From positions 3,286,001 to 3,350,000 of the forward strand of contig NZ_CP087203.1 of assembly GCF_026016325.1 (NCBI RefSeq): a stretch of DNA of 64,000 bases, read 5' to 3'. Source of the DNA: Pseudomonas sp. B21-056 (GTDB taxonomy: Bacteria; Pseudomonadota; Gammaproteobacteria; Pseudomonadales; Pseudomonadaceae). Below the pieces are notes generated by a model that was not told where the DNA came from, made no database searches, and was given only the letters and a program-made list of their open reading frames with translations. Position 1 is the stretch's first letter; every line of letters starts with the position of its first letter. Position numbers and translations under genes: made by a program. This document shows positions 1,405-46,981 of this stretch, in pieces.

Positions 1405-3228
1405 ATGGCAGACAAGCTGATCTCCCTGGCCGAACTCTCCGGCGGAGTCCGAAAGAAACACCCGCGCGGTGCCAGTGAGCAATTGCCTCCGGGCACGGCC
1501 CCCACGCTGCAGGACCTGACCGAATGCCTGATGTTCAGCCCGGGCGACGGGCGCATCTGGCTGAATGGCGCACGGATGCTGCTGATGCACAGCAGCGGCC
1601 TCGGCGCGATGCGGCGGGAGCTGATTGAAAGCATGGGCCTGGCCCGCGCCCGCGGCATCATGCTGCGCACCGGCTACCATTGCGGTGCGCGGGATGCGGC
1701 GCTGATCAAGGAGCGCTTTCCCGAGGCCGACTTCCTCGCGCTGTTCGCCGCCGGCCCGATCATCCATGCCATCGAAGGCGCGGTGAAGGTCGAGCCAGTG
1801 CATTTCGAATTCGATATGAACCTGGGCACCTATTACGGCGAGTTCCTCTGGCATCACTCCAGCGAGGATGACGAACACATCGCCCAGTTCGGCATCGGCA
1901 CCGAACCGGCCTGCTGGATGCAGACCGGCTATGCCACCGGATACACCTCGGCGATGGTCGGCCGATTGATCCTTTACCGGGAGGTCGAGTGTCGCTCCAC
2001 CGGTTCCAGCATCTGCCGGCTGATCGGCAAGCCCGCAGAGGAATGGGACGATGCAGAGGAAGACCTGGCGGCCCTGAAAGCCGAACCGTTCGTCAGCAGC
2101 AGCGGGCGCAGCACGGTACCTCCCAGCCCTGGCGACAAGGGAGTATTGGCGGCCGATCTGCAAGCCGATCCGCAACCGACCCAGGACGGCGACATGGTCG
2201 GTATCTCCTCGGCCTTCAACGCCGCCTGCCACATGCTGCGACGGGTCGCCCCGACCCAGGCGACCGTGCTGTTCACCGGCGAATCCGGCGTCGGCAAAGA
2301 GATGTTCGCCAAAATGCTGCACCGCATCAGCCCGCGCCACGATGCGCCTTTTGTCGCGATCAACTGTGCCGCCATTCCGGAAAACCTGATGGAGTCGGAG
2401 CTGTTTGGCGTCGAGCGCGGAGCCTTCACCGGTGCCACCCAATCCCGCGCCGGGCGTTTCGAGCGCGCCGATGGCGGTACCTTGTTCCTCGATGAAATCG
2501 CCACCCTCAGCCTGGTCGCCCAGGGCAAGCTACTGCGCGCACTGCAGGAAGGCGAGATCGAGCGGGTCGGCGGCAGTCGTACCTTGAAGGTCGATGTGCG
2601 GGTGGTCGCCGCGACCAACGTCGACCTGCGCGCCGCCGCACAGCGCGGCGAGTTTCGCGAAGACTTGTTCTTCCGCCTGAATGTCTTCCCGATCCACCTG
2701 CCGCCGTTGCGCGAGCGCAAGGAAGACATCCCGTTGCTGATGACCCACTTCCTGCGCCGCTTCACCCGCCATCATGGTCGGCAGATCAGTGGCTTCACCC
2801 CGCGCACGGCCGACACCCTGCTCGCCTATGACTTTCCAGGCAACATCCGCGAACTGCAGAACCTGGTGGAGCGCGGCGTGATCAGTGCACCGGATGGCGG
2901 CGCCATCGACCTGGCTCACCTGTTCACCAGCGGCGAACGCCTGGCCCAGCCGATGTTCTCCATTGGCCACCGTGGCCAACTGGCGGCAGCCCCGAATGAC
3001 CCGGCCTCCCCTGCGACTGCCGCACCTGCCCCCACAGGCGATGAAGCGATCCAGGCCTTGTTTGGCGGCAAGGACCTGAGTCGGCTGTCGCTGCAGGAGA
3101 TCGAGGAAACGATGATCGACCATTGCCTGGCCGAGGTGAAAGGCAATGTTTCCGAGGCGGCGCGCCGTCTTGGGCTGACCCGTGCTCAGTTGTCTTATCG
3201 GCTGTCGCGGCGTTCGGGGGGTGAGTAA
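1405..3228 (+). CDS. Sigma-54-dependent XylR/DmpR-type activator
   Basis: A 607-residue enhancer-binding protein. The first ~210 residues match the aromatic-sensing XylR_N plus V4R arrangement. The AAA+ domain follows, with Walker A GESGVGKE at 292-299, the sigma-54-contacting GAFTGA loop at 339-344 and Walker B TLFLDE near 359. A Fis-type helix-turn-helix closes the protein ([20 protein letters not shown] region). In this family an aromatic effector binding the N-terminal domain relieves repression of ATPase activity, which then opens sigma-54 promoters. The gene is divergent from calA, whose upstream region carries a good -24/-12 site, so control of calA by a phenylpropanoid effector is the simple reading. 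An Ala/Pro-rich linker lies between the AAA+ and HTH domains. Confidence 0.92.
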
Positions 3229-35149: not shown

Positions 35150-37378
35150 ATGCTGAACGATATTTTCCCGGACGAGTTTCCTCGCCCCCTGCAATCGATC
35201 TTCACTGATGAGATGGACGGCCCCGCCGCATTCCCCCGGCGCAGCTTCCTCAAGATCGTCGGCATCGGCGGGCTGGCCTTGGGCGCATTTCCGCACCTGG
35301 CCCTGGCCCAGCAAGTTGGCGACGGCGCGCAAGGGCTCAAGCCGACCCAGCAACCGTCCGCATTCGTGCAGATCGCGCCCAACGGCGAGGTAACAGTCAC
35401 GATCAACCGCCTGGAGTTCGGCCAGGGCGTGCAGACCGGGCTGCCCATGATCCTTGCCGAAGAGCTCGACGCCGACTGGAACCTGGTGCGCACCCGCAAT
35501 GGCAGCAACGACGCGGCCTATCAGGATCCGAATTTCGGCATGCACCTCACCGGCGGCTCCAACTCGATCAAGAACAGCTACACCCAGTACCGCGAACTGG
35601 GCGCCCGTGCTCGCGCCATGTTGCTCGCCGCGGCGGCCGCGCGCTGGAACGTGGAGGTGGCGAGCCTGAGTACCCAGGCGAGTATGGTGCTCGGCCCGGG
35701 AGGCCGAAAAGCCAGCTACGGCGAACTCGCCGAAGCAGCGATGGCGCAGCCCGTACCGGAGAAAGTCACCCTCAAGGACCCCAAGGACTTTCGCATCATC
35801 GGCCAGGCCACGACGCGCATCGATGCCAAGGCCAAGAGCAGCGGCCGCCAGGATTTCGGCATCGACATGCACCTGCCCGGACAGCTCACTGCCGTGGTGG
35901 CCCGCCCTCCTGTATTCGGCGCCCGCATCGCCTCGCTGGATGACAGCGCGGCGCGAGCCATCAAGGGGGTGAAAGCGGTCTTGCGCGTGCCATTGGATGG
36001 CGGCGCCGAAGGTGTGGCGGTGGTCGCAGACGGCTACTGGCAGGCGAAAACGGGTCGCGATGCACTCAAGCTGCAATGGGATGCGTCCACAGTCGAGAAG
36101 GTCGACAGCGAACAGCAACTGGCTCAATACCGCGACCTGGCCAACCAGCCCGGCCCGCTTCATTTCGAGGCCGACATGACGCCGCTTGCCACGGCCCCGC
36201 ATCAATTGGAAGCCGAGGTCCTGTTCCCCTACCTTGCCCATGCGCCCATGGAGCCGTTGAACTGCACCGTGCAGGTTTCCGAGGATCGCGCCCAGTTGTG
36301 GGTCGGCACGCAGTTCCCCGGCGGCGACGGTATTGCCGCTGCACGGGTGTTGAATCTCAAGCCTGAGCAAGTCCAGGTGAATGTGCAGACGGCAGGCGGT
36401 GGCTTCGGTCGGCGTGGCGTGCCCAGCGGTGACTTCGTTGTCCTGGCGTGCGAGGTCGCCAAGGCTGCGCGCACCGCAGGGCTCGATGCTCCCATCCGTA
36501 CCCTGTGGAGCCGTGAAGACGACATCAAGGGCGGCTACTACCGTCCCATGCATTTGCATCGCGCCCGTATCGGCTTCGATGACGACGGCAACGTACTGGC
36601 CTGGGATCACGTCCTGGTCGGGCAATCGATCCTTGCCGGCACGATGTTCGGCGCTCGGGTGAAAAACGGCATCGACCCCACCGCCACGGAAGGCCTGCGC
36701 AATCCCTATCCACTGCCGATGCGCCTGACCGTGCATCACCCCAAGCTCAATGTACCGGTGTTGTGGTGGCGCAGCGTGGGCTCCACCCACACGGCTTTTG
36801 TCATGGAAACCTTGATCGATGAGATAGCGCGGACAACCCGGCAGGATCCCGTGGCCTATCGGATGAAACTGTTTGCCGATCAAAGCCCGCGCCATCGCGC
36901 CGCGCTGCAACTGGCGGTGGACAAAAGCGGCTATGGCAAGGATCCACTGCCCGACGGCCGGGCCTGGGGCGTGGCGGTGCACGAGTCATTCAGTTCGGTG
37001 GTGGCCTACGTGGTCCAGGCCTCGGTACAGAACGGCCGTCCGGTGCTGCATCAGGTGACCGCGGGCGTCCATTGCAACCTGGTCGTCAACCCGCGCAGCG
37101 TCGAGGCGCAGGTGCAAGGGGCGGCCCTCATGGGTTTATCCATGTGCCTGCCGGGCGGCGCCATCACCTTGAAGGACGGTGTCGTGCAACAAAGCAATTT
37201 CGCCGACTTCAGCGTGCCGCGCATCACCGACACACCGGAGTTTTCCATTCACATCGTACCCAGCGCCGAACCACCCACCGGCATGGGCGAGCCCGGCCTG
37301 CCGGCGTTGGCGCCGGCCTTTGCGAATGCGCTGGCGAGCCTGACGGGCAAGCCAGTGCGTCAGTTGCCGTTCCCATGA
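35150..37378 (+). CDS. Molybdenum hydroxylase large subunit (IorB-like), Tat-exported
   Basis: A 742-residue molybdopterin-binding subunit. A twin-arginine signal is visible: RR at residues 30-31 in FPRRSFLK, then a hydrophobic stretch ending LALAQQ near residue 54. The enzyme should therefore be folded with its cofactor and exported to the periplasm, carrying the small subunit along. Typical motifs include NRLEFGQGVQTGLPM near the start, TAGGGFGRRG in the centre and the C-terminal TGMGEPGLPALAPA. Substrates in the family are N-heterocycles or aldehydes. No cytochrome c subunit or XdhC-type maturation gene is present here. Confidence 0.9.
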   Translation: MLNDIFPDEFPRPLQSIFTDEMDGPAAFPRRSFLKIVGIGGLALGAFPHLALAQQVGDGAQGLKPTQQPSAFVQIAPNGEVTVTINRLEFGQGVQTGLPMILAEELDADWNLVRTRNGSNDAAYQDPNFGMHLTGGSNSIKNSYTQYRELGARARAMLLAAAAARWNVEVASLSTQASMVLGPGGRKASYGELAEAAMAQPVPEKVTLKDPKDFRIIGQATTRIDAKAKSSGRQDFGIDMHLPGQLTAVVARPPVFGARIASLDDSAARAIKGVKAVLRVPLDGGAEGVAVVADGYWQAKTGRDALKLQWDASTVEKVDSEQQLAQYRDLANQPGPLHFEADMTPLATAPHQLEAEVLFPYLAHAPMEPLNCTVQVSEDRAQLWVGTQFPGGDGIAAARVLNLKPEQVQVNVQTAGGGFGRRGVPSGDFVVLACEVAKAARTAGLDAPIRTLWSREDDIKGGYYRPMHLHRARIGFDDDGNVLAWDHVLVGQSILAGTMFGARVKNGIDPTATEGLRNPYPLPMRLTVHHPKLNVPVLWWRSVGSTHTAFVMETLIDEIARTTRQDPVAYRMKLFADQSPRHRAALQLAVDKSGYGKDPLPDGRAWGVAVHESFSSVVAYVVQASVQNGRPVLHQVTAGVHCNLVVNPRSVEAQVQGAALMGLSMCLPGGAITLKDGVVQQSNFADFSVPRITDTPEFSIHIVPSAEPPTGMGEPGLPALAPAFANALASLTGKPVRQLPFP

Positions 37379-37464
37379 TGCGTAGCGGCAGGCGCAGATT
37401 GCTGCACCCGGTGCCAGAATGAACTGCACCGCCCCTGACTGGTGCCCACTGACCTGATCCTTAA

Positions 37465-37495
37465 AACTCCCAGCACAAACAACGTGCCGGGAGTT
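37465..37495 (+). promoter_or_regulatory. Hairpin that masks the Shine-Dalgarno of the quinone oxidoreductase gene
   Basis: AACTCCC-A-GCAC (37465-37476) pairs with GTGC-C-GGGAGTT (37484-37495): 11 base pairs, one mismatch, a 7-base AAACAAC loop. The GGGAG ribosome site at 37489-37493 lies inside the 3' arm, six bases before the ATG at 37500. There is no T tract. Translational control or a non-canonical terminator are both possible. Confidence 0.6.
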
Positions 37496-37499
37496 CCAC

Positions 37500-38474
37500 A
37501 TGGTCAGCATTGTCACCCTTCAACAAACAGGCGGGCCCGAGGTTCTGCGGCTCGGTGAAACCGCCCCGCAGTTACCGGGCCCCGGAGAAGTCTGGCTCGA
37601 ACAGTCGGCCATAGGGGTCAACCCTCTGGACGTGAGCCAGCGTGTCGGCGCAGTGCGGGTGCCCCTGCCCTGCGGACTCGGCCTGGAAGGGGCCGGGACT
37701 GTTGCGGCGGTCGGCCCGGGGGTCGTCGAGGTCGCCGTGGGTGACCGGGTCGCCTACGCCACGGGCCCCCTCGGTGCTTATGCCAGCGGACGCCTCTACC
37801 CGGCAAACCGACTGGTGAAAATTGCCGATGACGTTGGTTTCGATGAGGCGGCCGCCGTGCTGTTCAAAGGCATTACCGCGCACTATCTGCTGAAGACGAC
37901 ATACCCCGTCGGTCCAGGCGTCAGGGTGCTGCTGTACGGTGCTGCCGGGGCGCTGGGACAGATCATGGTGCCATGGGCCAAACACCTTGGCGCCTTCGTG
38001 ATAGGCGTCGTTTCCAAGCCAGAGAGTGTCGAGCGTGCCAGGGCGGCCGGTTGTGACGAGGTGCTGGTGTTCGACGCCGCGACGCTCGCCACCGAGGTGG
38101 CCCGGATCACCGACGGGCAAAAGGTCGATGTCGTGTATGACCCCATCGGACGAGTTTCTTTCGAAGCGTCCCTCGACAGCCTGCGTCCACGAGGACTGAT
38201 GGTATCGTTCGGCATGACCTCCGGCGCACCGACGGCTGTGGAACTGAGCACCCTCAACGCCAAAGGCTCGCTGTTCCTGACCCGACCGTCCCTCGCCGCC
38301 CACACGGCCAACACCCAGGAGTATCAGCAGCGCGCCAACGATGTGCTGCGTGCAGTCACCGACGGTATCATCACGCCTGCGCTCTGGCGTCGCTACCCAT
38401 TGGCGGATGCTGCCCTCGCCCACGCCGATCTGGAAAGCGGGCTGTCACAGGGTGCTATCGTCCTCAATCCATGA
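37500..38474 (+). CDS. Zinc-independent quinone oxidoreductase (MDR superfamily)
   Basis: A 324-residue NADPH:quinone reductase-like enzyme. The GroES-like N-terminal domain (VWLEQSAIGVNPLDVSQRVG) is followed by a Rossmann domain with VLLYGAAGALGQ, in place of the usual AAxGGVG motif. It lacks the catalytic zinc cysteines. It would reduce quinones or enones with NADPH. Its ribosome site is buried in a hairpin. The LysR gene 22 bp downstream is on the same strand and may regulate it. Confidence 0.88.
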   Translation: MVSIVTLQQTGGPEVLRLGETAPQLPGPGEVWLEQSAIGVNPLDVSQRVGAVRVPLPCGLGLEGAGTVAAVGPGVVEVAVGDRVAYATGPLGAYASGRLYPANRLVKIADDVGFDEAAAVLFKGITAHYLLKTTYPVGPGVRVLLYGAAGALGQIMVPWAKHLGAFVIGVVSKPESVERARAAGCDEVLVFDAATLATEVARITDGQKVDVVYDPIGRVSFEASLDSLRPRGLMVSFGMTSGAPTAVELSTLNAKGSLFLTRPSLAAHTANTQEYQQRANDVLRAVTDGIITPALWRRYPLADAALAHADLESGLSQGAIVLNP

Positions 38475-38496
38475 ATCCAGAGAGGTATGCCGTTGC

Positions 38497-39441
38497 ATGG
38501 ACCTGCTCGATAGCCGACAGGCTGACGAACTCGCGACACTCCTCGCGCTCTCCGAGCACGGCTCCTTTGCCGCCGCCGGACGGGTGCTGCAACGGCATCC
38601 GTCGGTGTTGTCAAAACGCCTGGGGGCAATGGAGGCGCGCCTGGGCATCCGCCTGGTGGAACGTACCACGCGGCAGCTGCGTTTTACCGATGAAGGCGAA
38701 CGCCTGGTGGAGCGGCTTCGTCATGCCGTGAGCCTGATTGCCCAAGCGGAGCAGGAGGCGGCATTGGGTGCGGCACAGGTCAGGGGGCGCTTGCGCATCG
38801 CCTTACCGGCGGCAATGGGACGGCTGTGGCTCAGTCCGATGGTCTCGGCCTTTTCCCTGGCCTATCCCGACGTTTCGCTGGAGGTGGAGTATGCGGAGCG
38901 ATTCGTCGATATCGTCGCCGAGGGGTTCGATGCGGCGATTCGGATCGGTGAGCTCCCGGACAGCCGACTGGTCGCCAGGAAGCTGTGCGAACACCTCCGG
39001 ATCCTCTGTGCCGCACCCGCCTACCTCGCTCGTCACGGCGAACCGAAGACCCCCGCAGACCTGGAGCATCACAACAGCCTCGGCTTCACCGGGCTGCATT
39101 CATATCCGGAATGGAAACTGGCAGGCAAGGACGATCAAGTCACCGTCAGGCTGCGCAGCAGCCTGGTCAGCAACGACAACGAGGCCCTGCTGTCCGCTGC
39201 GCGCATGGGGCTGGGCATCATTGCCGGTGGTGAATGGCTGATGACGCGGGACATCCAGTCCGGCAATCTGGTCCGGGTCCTGCCCGACTGGCAGCTCGAC
39301 GCGGACGCCGGCGTTTACCTGGTACGCCCGTCCGCCCGGTACAACGCGGCAGCGACCATGGCGTTCAAGCACTGGATGGAGACGGAGTTTGCGCAAGGGG
39401 CGCCCTGGGATTTGTCTGGATCCGCGGATGTCGCTCACTGA
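38497..39441 (+). CDS. LysR-family transcriptional regulator
   Basis: A 314-residue LysR protein. The winged helix reads LATLLALSEHGSFAAAGRVLQRHPSVLSKRLGAMEARLG; the effector domain (RLRIALPAAMGRLWLSPMV...) follows. I use the ATG at 38497, which gives the standard N-terminus. It follows the quinone oxidoreductase gene and faces the HNH gene; its stop lies about 60 bp from that gene's stop. It marks the left chromosomal border of the ATPase-HNH cassette. Confidence 0.9.
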   Translation: MDLLDSRQADELATLLALSEHGSFAAAGRVLQRHPSVLSKRLGAMEARLGIRLVERTTRQLRFTDEGERLVERLRHAVSLIAQAEQEAALGAAQVRGRLRIALPAAMGRLWLSPMVSAFSLAYPDVSLEVEYAERFVDIVAEGFDAAIRIGELPDSRLVARKLCEHLRILCAAPAYLARHGEPKTPADLEHHNSLGFTGLHSYPEWKLAGKDDQVTVRLRSSLVSNDNEALLSAARMGLGIIAGGEWLMTRDIQSGNLVRVLPDWQLDADAGVYLVRPSARYNAAATMAFKHWMETEFAQGAPWDLSGSADVAH

Positions 39442-39490
39442 TTCAGGATTTCCTCCCGTAGTGCGTCAACGAAACGGTCGAGATTGCTTC

Positions 39491-39512
39491 CAGGCTTAAC
39501 CCCTTAAGCCTG
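39491..39512. terminator. Perfect palindrome at the 3' end of the HNH gene
   Basis: CAGGCTTAA (39491-39499) and TTAAGCCTG (39504-39512) form a 9-bp perfect stem with a 4-base loop that includes the HNH stop codon. There is no clear T tract, so it may be a weak bidirectional terminator or simply a stable 3' end. Confidence 0.5.
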
Positions 39513-40163
39513 TATACGCGGCGCGGCTCCCTGAGCCTCAATTTCCATCGCAAGGAAAGGTGCTCGCCGACGTAAATACTCCAGCGAGATGTCGCCCTCA
39601 GCAAATGCCGTTGCATAGTCTTCGCGAACCTTCAGGCACTCCCGGTCGTTAAGCTTCAGACGCGTGATGGTGGCAATCACGCGAGCACTGACAGCGGGAT
39701 CAAGGTCAATCCCCGGAATAACCTGATAACCAATCAGTTCGAGGCGGAACCATCCTTCTTCGACCTCGAAAGGATCCAGGACATCCTGATAATGATTTTT
39801 TCGAGTGTTCATTAATGTGCAGGCCAGCCGATAGTTGTTCCACTCATAGATATCCTGCCAAGCCCTGGATTTGGGCAGCATATGGTCCACCGAACCACCA
39901 CCGGTGACACGCTCGATATAAATGCAAACATACGCGCAGAGTCGACCGTACGCGTCCATCAAATCTGGTAAGGCCTCTGTCCACAAAGGTGGGAACTTGT
40001 CGGCTGGAATGTCTTCCGGTACGTCGGCCAACTGTTTCCTGGGGCGCCCTCTGCGTTTGGGCAGATTGGGTTCTCCAACCAGTTCGGCAATAGCCCGAAG
40101 CCCCGGCGTTCTTACTAATCCTTCGAAGGTTTCCGGCTCATCTGCGCATTCAACTCTGATCAT
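39504..40163 (-). CDS. HNH endonuclease, partner of the adjacent ATPase (PtuB-like)
   Basis: A 219-residue protein. The nuclease core is D93-H94 in SVDHMLPKS, N109-N110 in EWNNYRLAC and N119/K122 in LMNTRKN, the DH...N...N/K arrangement of HNH enzymes and close to the 'DHxxPKS...NY..AC..CN..K' pattern of PtuB-type proteins. One expected zinc cysteine is Met118; C76 and C80 lie upstream. Residues 36-43 (KRRGRPRK) look like an AT-hook, suggesting minor-groove DNA contact. The start codon overlaps the ATPase stop (40160-40163). A DNA- or RNA-cutting effector controlled by the ATPase is the likely role; the anti-phage function is inferred. Confidence 0.8.
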   Translation of the reverse strand: MIRVECADEPETFEGLVRTPGLRAIAELVGEPNLPKRRGRPRKQLADVPEDIPADKFPPLWTEALPDLMDAYGRLCAYVCIYIERVTGGGSVDHMLPKSRAWQDIYEWNNYRLACTLMNTRKNHYQDVLDPFEVEEGWFRLELIGYQVIPGIDLDPAVSARVIATITRLKLNDRECLKVREDYATAFAEGDISLEYLRRRAPFLAMEIEAQGAAPRIQA

Positions 40164-41467
40164 GCGCCGCCCACCTGCTGCTCGCGGAAATGGCTCCAGC
40201 GTATCCAGAAAGAATCAACATCACTCAGGCTGCCTCGCAGCGCTGAGTCGATTTCTCTCAAAGTGCTCTGCTGACCTGCCGTCAGGGGCTTTTGCTGAGA
40301 AGTCACCTCCCGCAAAAAAGTCCGAGCCCGCTCCAATGCTTCCTCGGCGGCGATAGAACCTGGTTCCTTCAGATTGAATACCTCCGACGATAACCAGGCG
40401 TTGACGTCGCCCTTACGCGAATAAGGATAGAGAGAAGCCTGGACCTCATTCCCAACCAGATCGAAGTCCCAGATACAGTCGCGTTCGTTGTCAAACTCTG
40501 GTTCGACAGAGGCCAATACCAAAGGTGAATGGGTTGCAGCCAACAGTTGAACAGGCACATCACGAGTGCCAGTTAGTGCATTCATGACATTCAGCAAGGC
40601 AGGAACAATACGACGCTGCCATTGCGGGTGCAGATGGCACTCAATTTCGTCGATCAGAAAAATAATCTCTCTTGCCGCTGGTACTCGATACCGTTCATAA
40701 GCGAGTTGATGCTCCCGCCAGGTCCATACCAGCAGATAGGCCAGAGCGGCAATACGACGCATCCCCGCAGAGGCCTGAGTCAACGGTACATCTTGTCCAT
40801 AGGGCATACGCAATGAAGGAATATCCCTGACGCTGTCACCCACGCGCATTGGCTCCCCAGGTCGCATCTTTTCCACTCCGGAGGGCGAAAGTGCATCCAG
40901 CACCTTTACCAGATCGTCAAAAGCGGGTTTAGCACCTTCTTGCCATAAAACCCAATCACTGATCAGTCCATTGCACAGCTGGGTTTTTCCGTCACTGGAA
41001 AGAAGTCCGTTCCAGACGGCGTCAGGTGAAAAATCGAAGCTCCGCGGTCGGTTCGGCGCCGCTGTCTCTCCCTTATCACCCTTCCAATAGTTACGAGCCG
41101 GGTCCCAGACAGAGAAACTTCCGTCAACGCCTGCATAAATCACCACCCCCGGAATCGCTGGGCGGCTCTGCTTGACTGACCATTGCTGGGTACCATGGTC
41201 AAAGTTACTTTTGTAGGAAAAATCACCCGTACTGCCTTTGTAGCAGTAGGCGATGCTCGATTCTCTGGCATTCTTACGGGGAGTGGCGATCCCTTCTCTG
41301 GGCCAGGTGCGGGTAAGTGACCACCAGGCAATATCCAGCACAAAACTCTTGCCCAGGCCATTGTCCCCAGTCAAGAAATTGAGGCGCGACTTGAAGTCTA
41401 TGGCGAGCTTCTCAGCAGGACCAACACCTTCGAACGTCAGGTTTTTAAGCACGGGTAGAGTCTCCAA
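40160..41467 (-). CDS. AAA/ABC-type ATPase of a two-gene ATPase-HNH cassette (PtuA-like)
   Basis: A 435-residue SMC/OLD-type ATPase. Walker A is GDNGLGKS at 34-41, the ABC-like signature is TQASAGMRR near 232, Walker B is FLIDEIECHLHPQWQ near 265, and the histidine switch is AATHSPLVLAS near 308. There is no TOPRIM domain, so nuclease activity must come from the downstream HNH protein, whose gene overlaps by four bases. The combination parallels PtuA-PtuB of Septu and the effector pair of type I-A retrons; no retron reverse transcriptase or ncRNA is nearby. Base composition is lower in G+C than in flanking genes, which suggests horizontal acquisition. It is shorter than the PtuA proteins I recall. 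Confidence 0.82.
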   Translation of the reverse strand: METLPVLKNLTFEGVGPAEKLAIDFKSRLNFLTGDNGLGKSFVLDIAWWSLTRTWPREGIATPRKNARESSIAYCYKGSTGDFSYKSNFDHGTQQWSVKQSRPAIPGVVIYAGVDGSFSVWDPARNYWKGDKGETAAPNRPRSFDFSPDAVWNGLLSSDGKTQLCNGLISDWVLWQEGAKPAFDDLVKVLDALSPSGVEKMRPGEPMRVGDSVRDIPSLRMPYGQDVPLTQASAGMRRIAALAYLLVWTWREHQLAYERYRVPAAREIIFLIDEIECHLHPQWQRRIVPALLNVMNALTGTRDVPVQLLAATHSPLVLASVEPEFDNERDCIWDFDLVGNEVQASLYPYSRKGDVNAWLSSEVFNLKEPGSIAAEEALERARTFLREVTSQQKPLTAGQQSTLREIDSALRGSLSDVDSFWIRWSHFREQQVGGA

Positions 41468-41710
41468 TCATTCGGGCGCCACGAACAGCCGCAGTGATAC
41501 TCCACGGTCTAGCGGGTTTCGGAGAACAATCATACTAGGCAGCTGTGCCTATTCCTAAGCAATCGTTCGCATCCTCTGCGCGGCGCTTCCTACTGATACG
41601 TAGATATGGCTATCCGTTTTGCTGGTGGGCCACAGTGCGGAGCCGATGTTCCCACAGAATCTTTGCTCTATCATGCTCACCATCTCACTTCCCTGACTGA
41701 TGGAACGACC

Positions 41711-44437: not shown

Positions 44438-44546
44438 TGTGGCGAGGGGATTTAGCGAAACGTCGCACCGCCCCGCTGGGGCGCGCAGCGGCCCTAAGAT
44501 TTTGGGGCTGCTGCGCAGCCCAGCGGGGATAAATCCCCTCGCCACA
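44438..44546. repeat. REPIN (GAGGGGATT class), variant left arm
   Basis: Arms TGTGGCGAGGGGATT and GGATAAATCCCCTCGCCACA; the left arm carries the AGCGAAACGTCGCACCGCC replacement. The centre GGCCCTAAGATTTTGGGGC is the same as that of the element at 46867. Confidence 0.88.
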
Positions 44547-44573
44547 AAAAACACTGCACACTATGGTTGCTGC

Positions 44574-46835: not shown

Positions 46836-46866
46836 TCAACCGATGGGATCCTGCGCCGGACGCTTC

Positions 46867-46960
46867 TGTGGCGAGGGGATTTATCCCCGCTGGGGCGCGA
46901 AGCGGCCCTAAGATTTTGGGGCCGCTGCGCAGCCCAGCGGGGATAAATCCCCTCGCCACA
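46867..46960. repeat. REPIN (GAGGGGATTTATCCCC class), short-centre variant
   Basis: Arms TGTGGCGAGGGGATTTATCC and its complement around GCGGCCCTAAGATTTTGGGGC. The centre matches the element at 44438. It sits between the Yip1 and ligD stops. Confidence 0.92.
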
Positions 46961-46981
46961 GAAGTCCACTGCAAATCCCTA

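Follow-up and report, generated by a model that had tools for sequence, protein, structure and literature searches.

The locus studied here lies in a 64,000-nucleotide stretch of contig NZ_CP087203.1 of Pseudomonas sp. B21-056 (hereafter the window), at about 3.33 Mb on the 6.45-Mb chromosome of the source genome, and comprises two genes on the minus strand. The first gene, ptuA (40160..41467), is an open reading frame of 435 aa with a TTG start that encodes a Septu ATPase of the ABC/SMC type, and the second gene, ptuB (39504..40163), starts with ATG and encodes an HNH nuclease of 219 aa. The two genes share an overlap of 4 bp that reads ATGA on the minus strand (tcat at 40160-40163 of the plus strand). 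Hence, the pair exists as the original prediction had described it, as was confirmed from the list of open reading frames and the strand letters. The cassette is neighbored by adh and lysR on one side, and patB and sdr were used as flanking genes for comparisons of base composition as well. The true start of ptuA is probably the GTG at 41452, because the matching codon is an ATG behind GGAG in the related loci L003, L004, L032, L036 and L039 (L003 and L039 being identical in this comparison), and because a length of exactly 430 aa, as this start would give, is common among homologues (53 of the 120 homologues listed). The 435 aa previously stated for the ATPase are thus correct for the reading frame but probably not for the real protein.

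The ATPase had been described as SMC/OLD-like without TOPRIM, and the Pfam search agreed, with AAA_21 reaching 72.7 bits against a cut-off of 27 and none of the four matches of PtuA belonging to a TOPRIM family; the C-terminal TOPRIM of OLD/Gabija-type ATPases is accordingly absent from this protein. In the 435-aa numbering, Walker A spans G34-S41, the signature region lies around S233, Walker B is found at L271-E274 and the H-loop histidine is H313, and an alignment of 66 PtuA rows shows no variation in the columns of Walker A, Walker B and the H-loop. The HNH-like core and the string KRRGRPRK that had been noticed in the second protein are both present in the ptuB product. The core consists of D93-H94, N110, N119 and K122, and the Pfam HNH family scored 12.4 bits, below its cut-off of 21.4, which indicates a divergent HNH protein. 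H94, N110, N119 and C76 are invariant across 74 aligned PtuBs, and among 240 listed database proteins (the top 120 each from two PtuB searches with 607 and 683 matches, one of these proteins, P0020, being a fragment of the PtuB of the window itself) H94, N119 and K122 were kept in all 240, N110 and C76 in 239 each. Neither protein reached an NCBIfam cut-off (PtuA 66.8 bits versus 500), and the combination of a generic Pfam AAA match, a sub-threshold HNH match and a missing NCBIfam name explains the database labels 'AAA family ATPase' and 'hypothetical protein'. The AT-hook-like string, residues 36-43 of PtuB, was rejected as a defining functional part, because it is not clade-wide: RGRP occurs in 29 of 121 PtuBs of the nearest group and in none of the 120 of a second group, while the looser pattern [KR]GR.[RK] gave 83 of 121 and 0 of 120. 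It is probably a local basic insert.

The family identity of the pair follows from profile searches and predicted folds. In PADLOC-DB (version 2.0.0 of 2023), PtuA matched PtuA1 (PDLC00307) over nearly its full length with 604.8 bits, the next model, also a PtuA1, scoring 414.8, and PtuB matched PtuB1 (PDLC00348), again nearly end to end, with 236.3 bits compared with 39.0 for the next model. The E-values of 2.2e-182 and 5.2e-71 place both matches beyond chance. A profile built from PtuA relatives retrieved solved PtuA chains from the PDB (best E 5.2e-29), and one built from PtuB relatives retrieved the solved PtuB chains 9vh1_F (5.5e-7) and 8ee7_C (7.2e-7), whereas phmmer with the single PtuB sequence found no PtuB in the PDB. 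Among the matches of the AlphaFold models, solved PtuA and PtuB chains outranked all other rows; the top 12 rows for PtuB and, with VIA-align, the top 21 for PtuA were Septu or retron I-A chains, and all of the top 12 Foldseek rows obtained with the PtuB model were PtuB. The identity to solved chains in these structural alignments is low, about 12-18%, also for E. coli Septu PtuAB (PDB 8ee4, 8ee7, 8eea, 8sux), so that the pair may differ from them in particulars of assembly and target. The features of Septu type I are found together at this locus, namely an ABC-type ATPase with Walker A and B and a model match over its length, an HNH partner likewise matched over its length, and the adjacent position of both genes on the same strand with no reverse transcriptase in the operon; the models exclude nothing here. 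Based on sequence profiles, predicted fold, conserved residues, operon structure, the lack of a nearby reverse transcriptase and a patchy distribution, we regard the locus as a horizontally acquired Septu (type I) anti-phage operon ptuA-ptuB, with a probability of roughly 0.92. The original prediction of a Septu-like ATPase-HNH pair is thus upheld by the PADLOC profiles and the fold matches, and an anti-phage role is probable from family membership. The word 'uncatalogued' has to be withdrawn, since existing models already fit both proteins: the pair adds a further copy to a catalogued family and does not represent a new system.

The same prediction had gone further and proposed a separate ATPase-HNH defense type that merely resembles Septu, which in the light of the following comparisons is very improbable. 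The short ATPase does not mark a subtype, because the PtuA1 profiles listed by PADLOC span 348-726 positions and the solved PtuA chain of E. coli Septu has 465 residues, close to the 430 here; length was ruled out as a subtype mark on these grounds. The replacement of one zinc cysteine by methionine, the second argument, reflects a real loss that had been understated, as neither CxxC pair is intact in the PtuB of the window and both are degenerate. In its group of 121 PtuB sequences, cysteine is found at positions 76 and 115 in 120 sequences each and Met occupies the fourth ligand position in all 121, while position 115 is Cys in only 2 of the 120 sequences of the second group. At position 80, 52 of the 121 nearest sequences have Cys, and for these a shifted zinc ligand may be conceivable. 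In favor of a separate type, the tree of 38 PtuA-like proteins set the window clade of 22 rows apart by a long branch (support 99/100) with a length of 2.55 changes per column, although the tree holds several very long branches and the tool itself warned that deeper joins may be false. Moreover, CxxC pairs are absent from all 21 rows of this clade with a typed partner, whereas the HNH partners of other PtuA-like ATPases of the genus have both pairs at 7 of 16 loci and the first pair only at 3 more (at 6 of the 16 screened Pseudomonas loci no HNH-like ORF was caught), and NCBIfam names neither protein. However, the CxxC pairs are also absent from the aligned stretch of the solved PtuB of E. coli Septu, hence their loss is part of the known Septu diversity and was ruled out as a sign of novelty. 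With the nearly end-to-end fit of the PADLOC models and the full-length fold matches to PtuA and PtuB, the arguments for a separate subtype, length and zinc, both fail. The original observation is therefore sound and its interpretation partly right: Septu it is, a new type it is not.

The close structural relation between Septu and retron effectors raises the possibility that the pair derives from a type I-A retron stripped of its reverse transcriptase and non-coding RNA. The best single-sequence PDB matches of PtuA are indeed chains of the retron Ec78 PtuA (E 1.5e-9), and in the fold comparisons retron PtuA/PtuB and Septu are tied. The profile scores separate the two families, with 605 bits for the Septu versus 72 for the retron model (ATPase_I-A) in the case of the ATPase, and 236 versus 17 (HNH_I-A) for the nuclease. 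Septu type II carries a reverse transcriptase and type I does not (PMC8565338). The genome contains three RVT_1 matches, at 5.07, 5.60 and 5.76 Mb, none of them within 1 Mb of the cassette, and Rfam gave no match between 37000 and 44000 at E-values up to 0.5; the reverse transcriptase and msr-msd that stand beside ptuAB in Septu type II or retron I-A were thus not found here. The small upstream ORFs inspected in relatives did not look RT-like, and the upstream similarity among close copies covers only about 114 bp to 0.4 kb. The PtuA chains of the I-A retrons (Ec78/Eco7, Ec83) measure 542-552 aa, and Eco7 PtuB retains the first CxxC in the aligned stretch, unlike PtuB of the window. An origin from a stripped retron thus appears extremely improbable, and the missing reverse transcriptase in the vicinity assigns the operon to Septu type I.

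Horizontal acquisition, which had been proposed from hand counts of base composition, is supported by low GC3, patchy distribution in the genus, differing settings and plasmid copies. The GC and GC3 values are 0.535 and 0.550 for ptuB and 0.537 and 0.555 for ptuA, compared with 0.650 and 0.729 for adh, 0.651 and 0.764 for lysR, 0.641 and 0.841 for patB, and 0.628 and 0.797 for sdr; hence a GC3 of 0.55 in the cassette stands against 0.73-0.84 in the two genes checked per side. The earlier hand counts (42-55% G+C) had the direction right but were too low in value. An outlier test of GC content is partly circular, because 2 of the 621 intervals have lower GC at positions that may coincide with the cassette. 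Rather than occupying the same place in nearly all relatives with normal composition, the cassette was found beside patB in 1 of 30 patB loci fetched from relatives, namely in this genome only. In the nearest relative (G010, patB 92%), 1.1 kb of different DNA stand in place of the region corresponding to about 37375-41626, which comprises the cassette together with adh and lysR. A clean empty site was not obtained from this comparison, and the insertion end on the lysR side is not pinned, as the replacement spans both neighboring genes too. Only short imperfect repeat pairs, likely due to chance, flank the cassette. The region from a gene for a molybdopterin-type oxidoreductase to patB (window 37375-41626; L076, L078, L079) is a variable spot that measures about 4.3 kb in this genome, 2.4 kb in G039, 3.9 kb in G035 and 1.1 kb in G010, where it contains a 201-aa ORF matched by neither Pfam nor PADLOC; the G035 version includes a chemotaxis-receptor-like gene among others. 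Short palindromic repeats of the REP type occur in the window at about 44471-44549 and 46862-46964, and G010 and G039 have more of them in the corresponding regions.

PtuA of this clade was detected in 12 of 298 genomes of the genus (best match per genome at least 274 bits) in differing settings, and the PtuB model matched 8 of 369 gammaproteobacterial genomes, above 46 bits only the source genome itself. The DNA similarity to the copies in G070 and G217 ended at the gene ends in a first comparison (39524-41488 and 39538-41481), a finer one extended it by about 114 bp of leader, and each close copy has flanks of its own. The pair also occurs on two Azotobacter plasmids, with 82% identity in PtuA and 70-71% in PtuB; on the one inspected it lies near genes for zeta toxin, IS630 and MobI, and the partner gene was adjacent in 5 of 5 plasmid records. 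No match to PtuA was obtained by tblastn among 50,697 phage records at E 1e-10, while seven loci on viral contigs encode a relative (36-54% identity in the five longer ones). What we take to be IS66-like transposase genes lie near several cassette copies (L108:706-1143, L032:3838-5370, and about 1,200-445 bp upstream of ptuA in L037), and such elements are a possible vehicle of the cassette. Another member of the clade, from an Armatimonadetes MAG (L043:4974-7031), has about 270 extra residues right after the Walker A region of PtuA, made of repeats of the type LLATGRAWLxGREDRAEW.

Clade loci with a complete ptuA and flanks number 25 (L001-L012 and L032-L044; L013, at a contig end, and L045, a 62-residue match, were excluded), and ptuB adjoins ptuA in 23 of them. 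The two exceptions are a Pseudomonas lini locus (L037:4983-6296), in which an internal deletion removes the end of ptuA and fuses it to a shortened ptuB, a natural derivative that is probably inactive as an ATPase, and an orphan PtuA of the clade in Ectothiorhodospira shaposhnikovii (L041:5001-7008), next to genes that presumably form a VapBC-type toxin-antitoxin pair. Together with one of the 12 genus genomes (G006), in which ptuA is split in two frames, these cases show decay among relatives, and it could be argued that the cassette of the window is likewise degraded or non-functional and just passing through, especially since a small upstream gene of five out of seven close copies is missing here. 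Such a state is unlikely, because both genes of the window are full length with every motif residue present, and the protein identity of 83-92% to the pair in G070 fits purifying selection.

The same chromosome harbors a second PtuA-PtuB pair at G000:C1:5439949-5441780 (L002:1486-3326), which also matches PDLC00307 and PDLC00348 and shares 46% (PtuA) and 32% (PtuB) identity with the pair of the window. Near-identical pairs with the same upstream gene were found in L009 (G124), and near-identical proteins in L010 (G173).

A six-region alignment and blastn of upstream regions defined a leader at 41453..41566 (minus strand) that is common to close copies in other settings. The leader probably carries the promoter, while scans for promoters and terminators gave nothing above chance and no promoter-like site on the minus strand. 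It includes the palindrome TAGGCA-N4-TGCCTA (41536..41551), a candidate operator that is only a lead, because it is perfect in three of the six aligned leaders (window, L032, L037) and imperfect in the other three. At its upstream end, 12 bp (41555..41566, minus strand) may represent the last four codons (T-I-A-stop) of a small gene, a remnant that is itself conjectural given this length. Among the seven distinct close copies (the window and six with PtuA 88-92% identical to it), a small ORF of 72-73 aa is intact upstream of ptuA in five, namely G070, G217, G763, L032 and L036, and ends about 96-120 bp before ptuA; it was located at L032:902-1117 (+), L080:11868-11653 (-), L081:11684-11466 (-), L036:4697-4912 (+) and L108 around 1501-1719 (+). 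In G703 (truncated form at L112) the ORF breaks off after about 40 residues, and in the window it is missing upstream of 41566, except perhaps for the final four codons. More distant copies (L033, L034, L099 and others) do not have it, and to our knowledge it is no part of the PADLOC definition of Septu.

The small ORF is a real gene, since in each of the six pairwise comparisons of four ORFs the third codon position varies most (11-30 differences versus 2-8 at other positions). Its product matched Pfam HTH_33 with 16.5 bits, below the cut-off of 25, and PHROG 3865, of unknown function, with 20.3 bits; the gene is probably regulatory, and its product may be a DNA-binding protein of the HTH type. 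Homologues occur in 16 of 398 genus genomes and stand beside ptuA in four (G070, G217, G763, G703), the source genome has no match, and nine other loci (L110, L111 and L113-L119, the inspected set excluding L120-L122) contained neither ptuA nor ptuB in the fetched stretch. As most of them sit away from ptuAB, the small protein is not tied to Septu. It may tentatively be proposed, with considerable doubt, that Septu of this lineage is a three-part unit, in which the 72-73-aa protein would act as repressor of ptuAB via the leader palindrome, infection by a phage or arrival in a new host would lift the repression, and the copy of the window would have escaped by gene loss, running unrepressed or under host control. 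Our search of the open-access literature found no paper on a Septu-specific regulator.

By analogy to solved Septu complexes and other studied relatives, from which assembly, ATP control, trigger and killing are taken, PtuA would oligomerize as an ABC-type ATPase and restrain the HNH nuclease PtuB. Phage infection would shift the nucleotide state of PtuA and thereby free PtuB, which would cut nucleic acid of the infected cell; this would halt phage production and often kill the cell too. In Septu EcB88, mutants in Walker A and B of PtuA (K43, D316) or in H75 or N91 of PtuB lost immunity, and the system was shown to cut tRNA-Tyr in the variable loop (PMC13096335). The Walker and H/N residues required for that defense have counterparts here. 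tRNA-Tyr is also cut by Retron-Eco7 (PMC11555353), and phage DNA was reported in earlier work as the target of Septu from E. coli ATCC 25922. Judging from these relatives, the target of PtuB may be DNA or tRNA-Tyr.

As a defense system, the operon adds one more Septu to a genus rich in such systems, and its value is comparative. The two PtuAB pairs of one clade in one genome, with PtuAs 46% identical, offer a clean test of whether paired copies target DNA versus tRNA. The clade of CxxC-free PtuBs is large, with 607 and 683 database matches for the two PtuBs of this genome, hence natural Septu systems can do without the metal-binding knuckle. Finally, the three-part unit, if true, would give Septu a transcriptional switch of its own, and a repressor function of the small gene would show how a defense that may harm its host stays silent during transfer.
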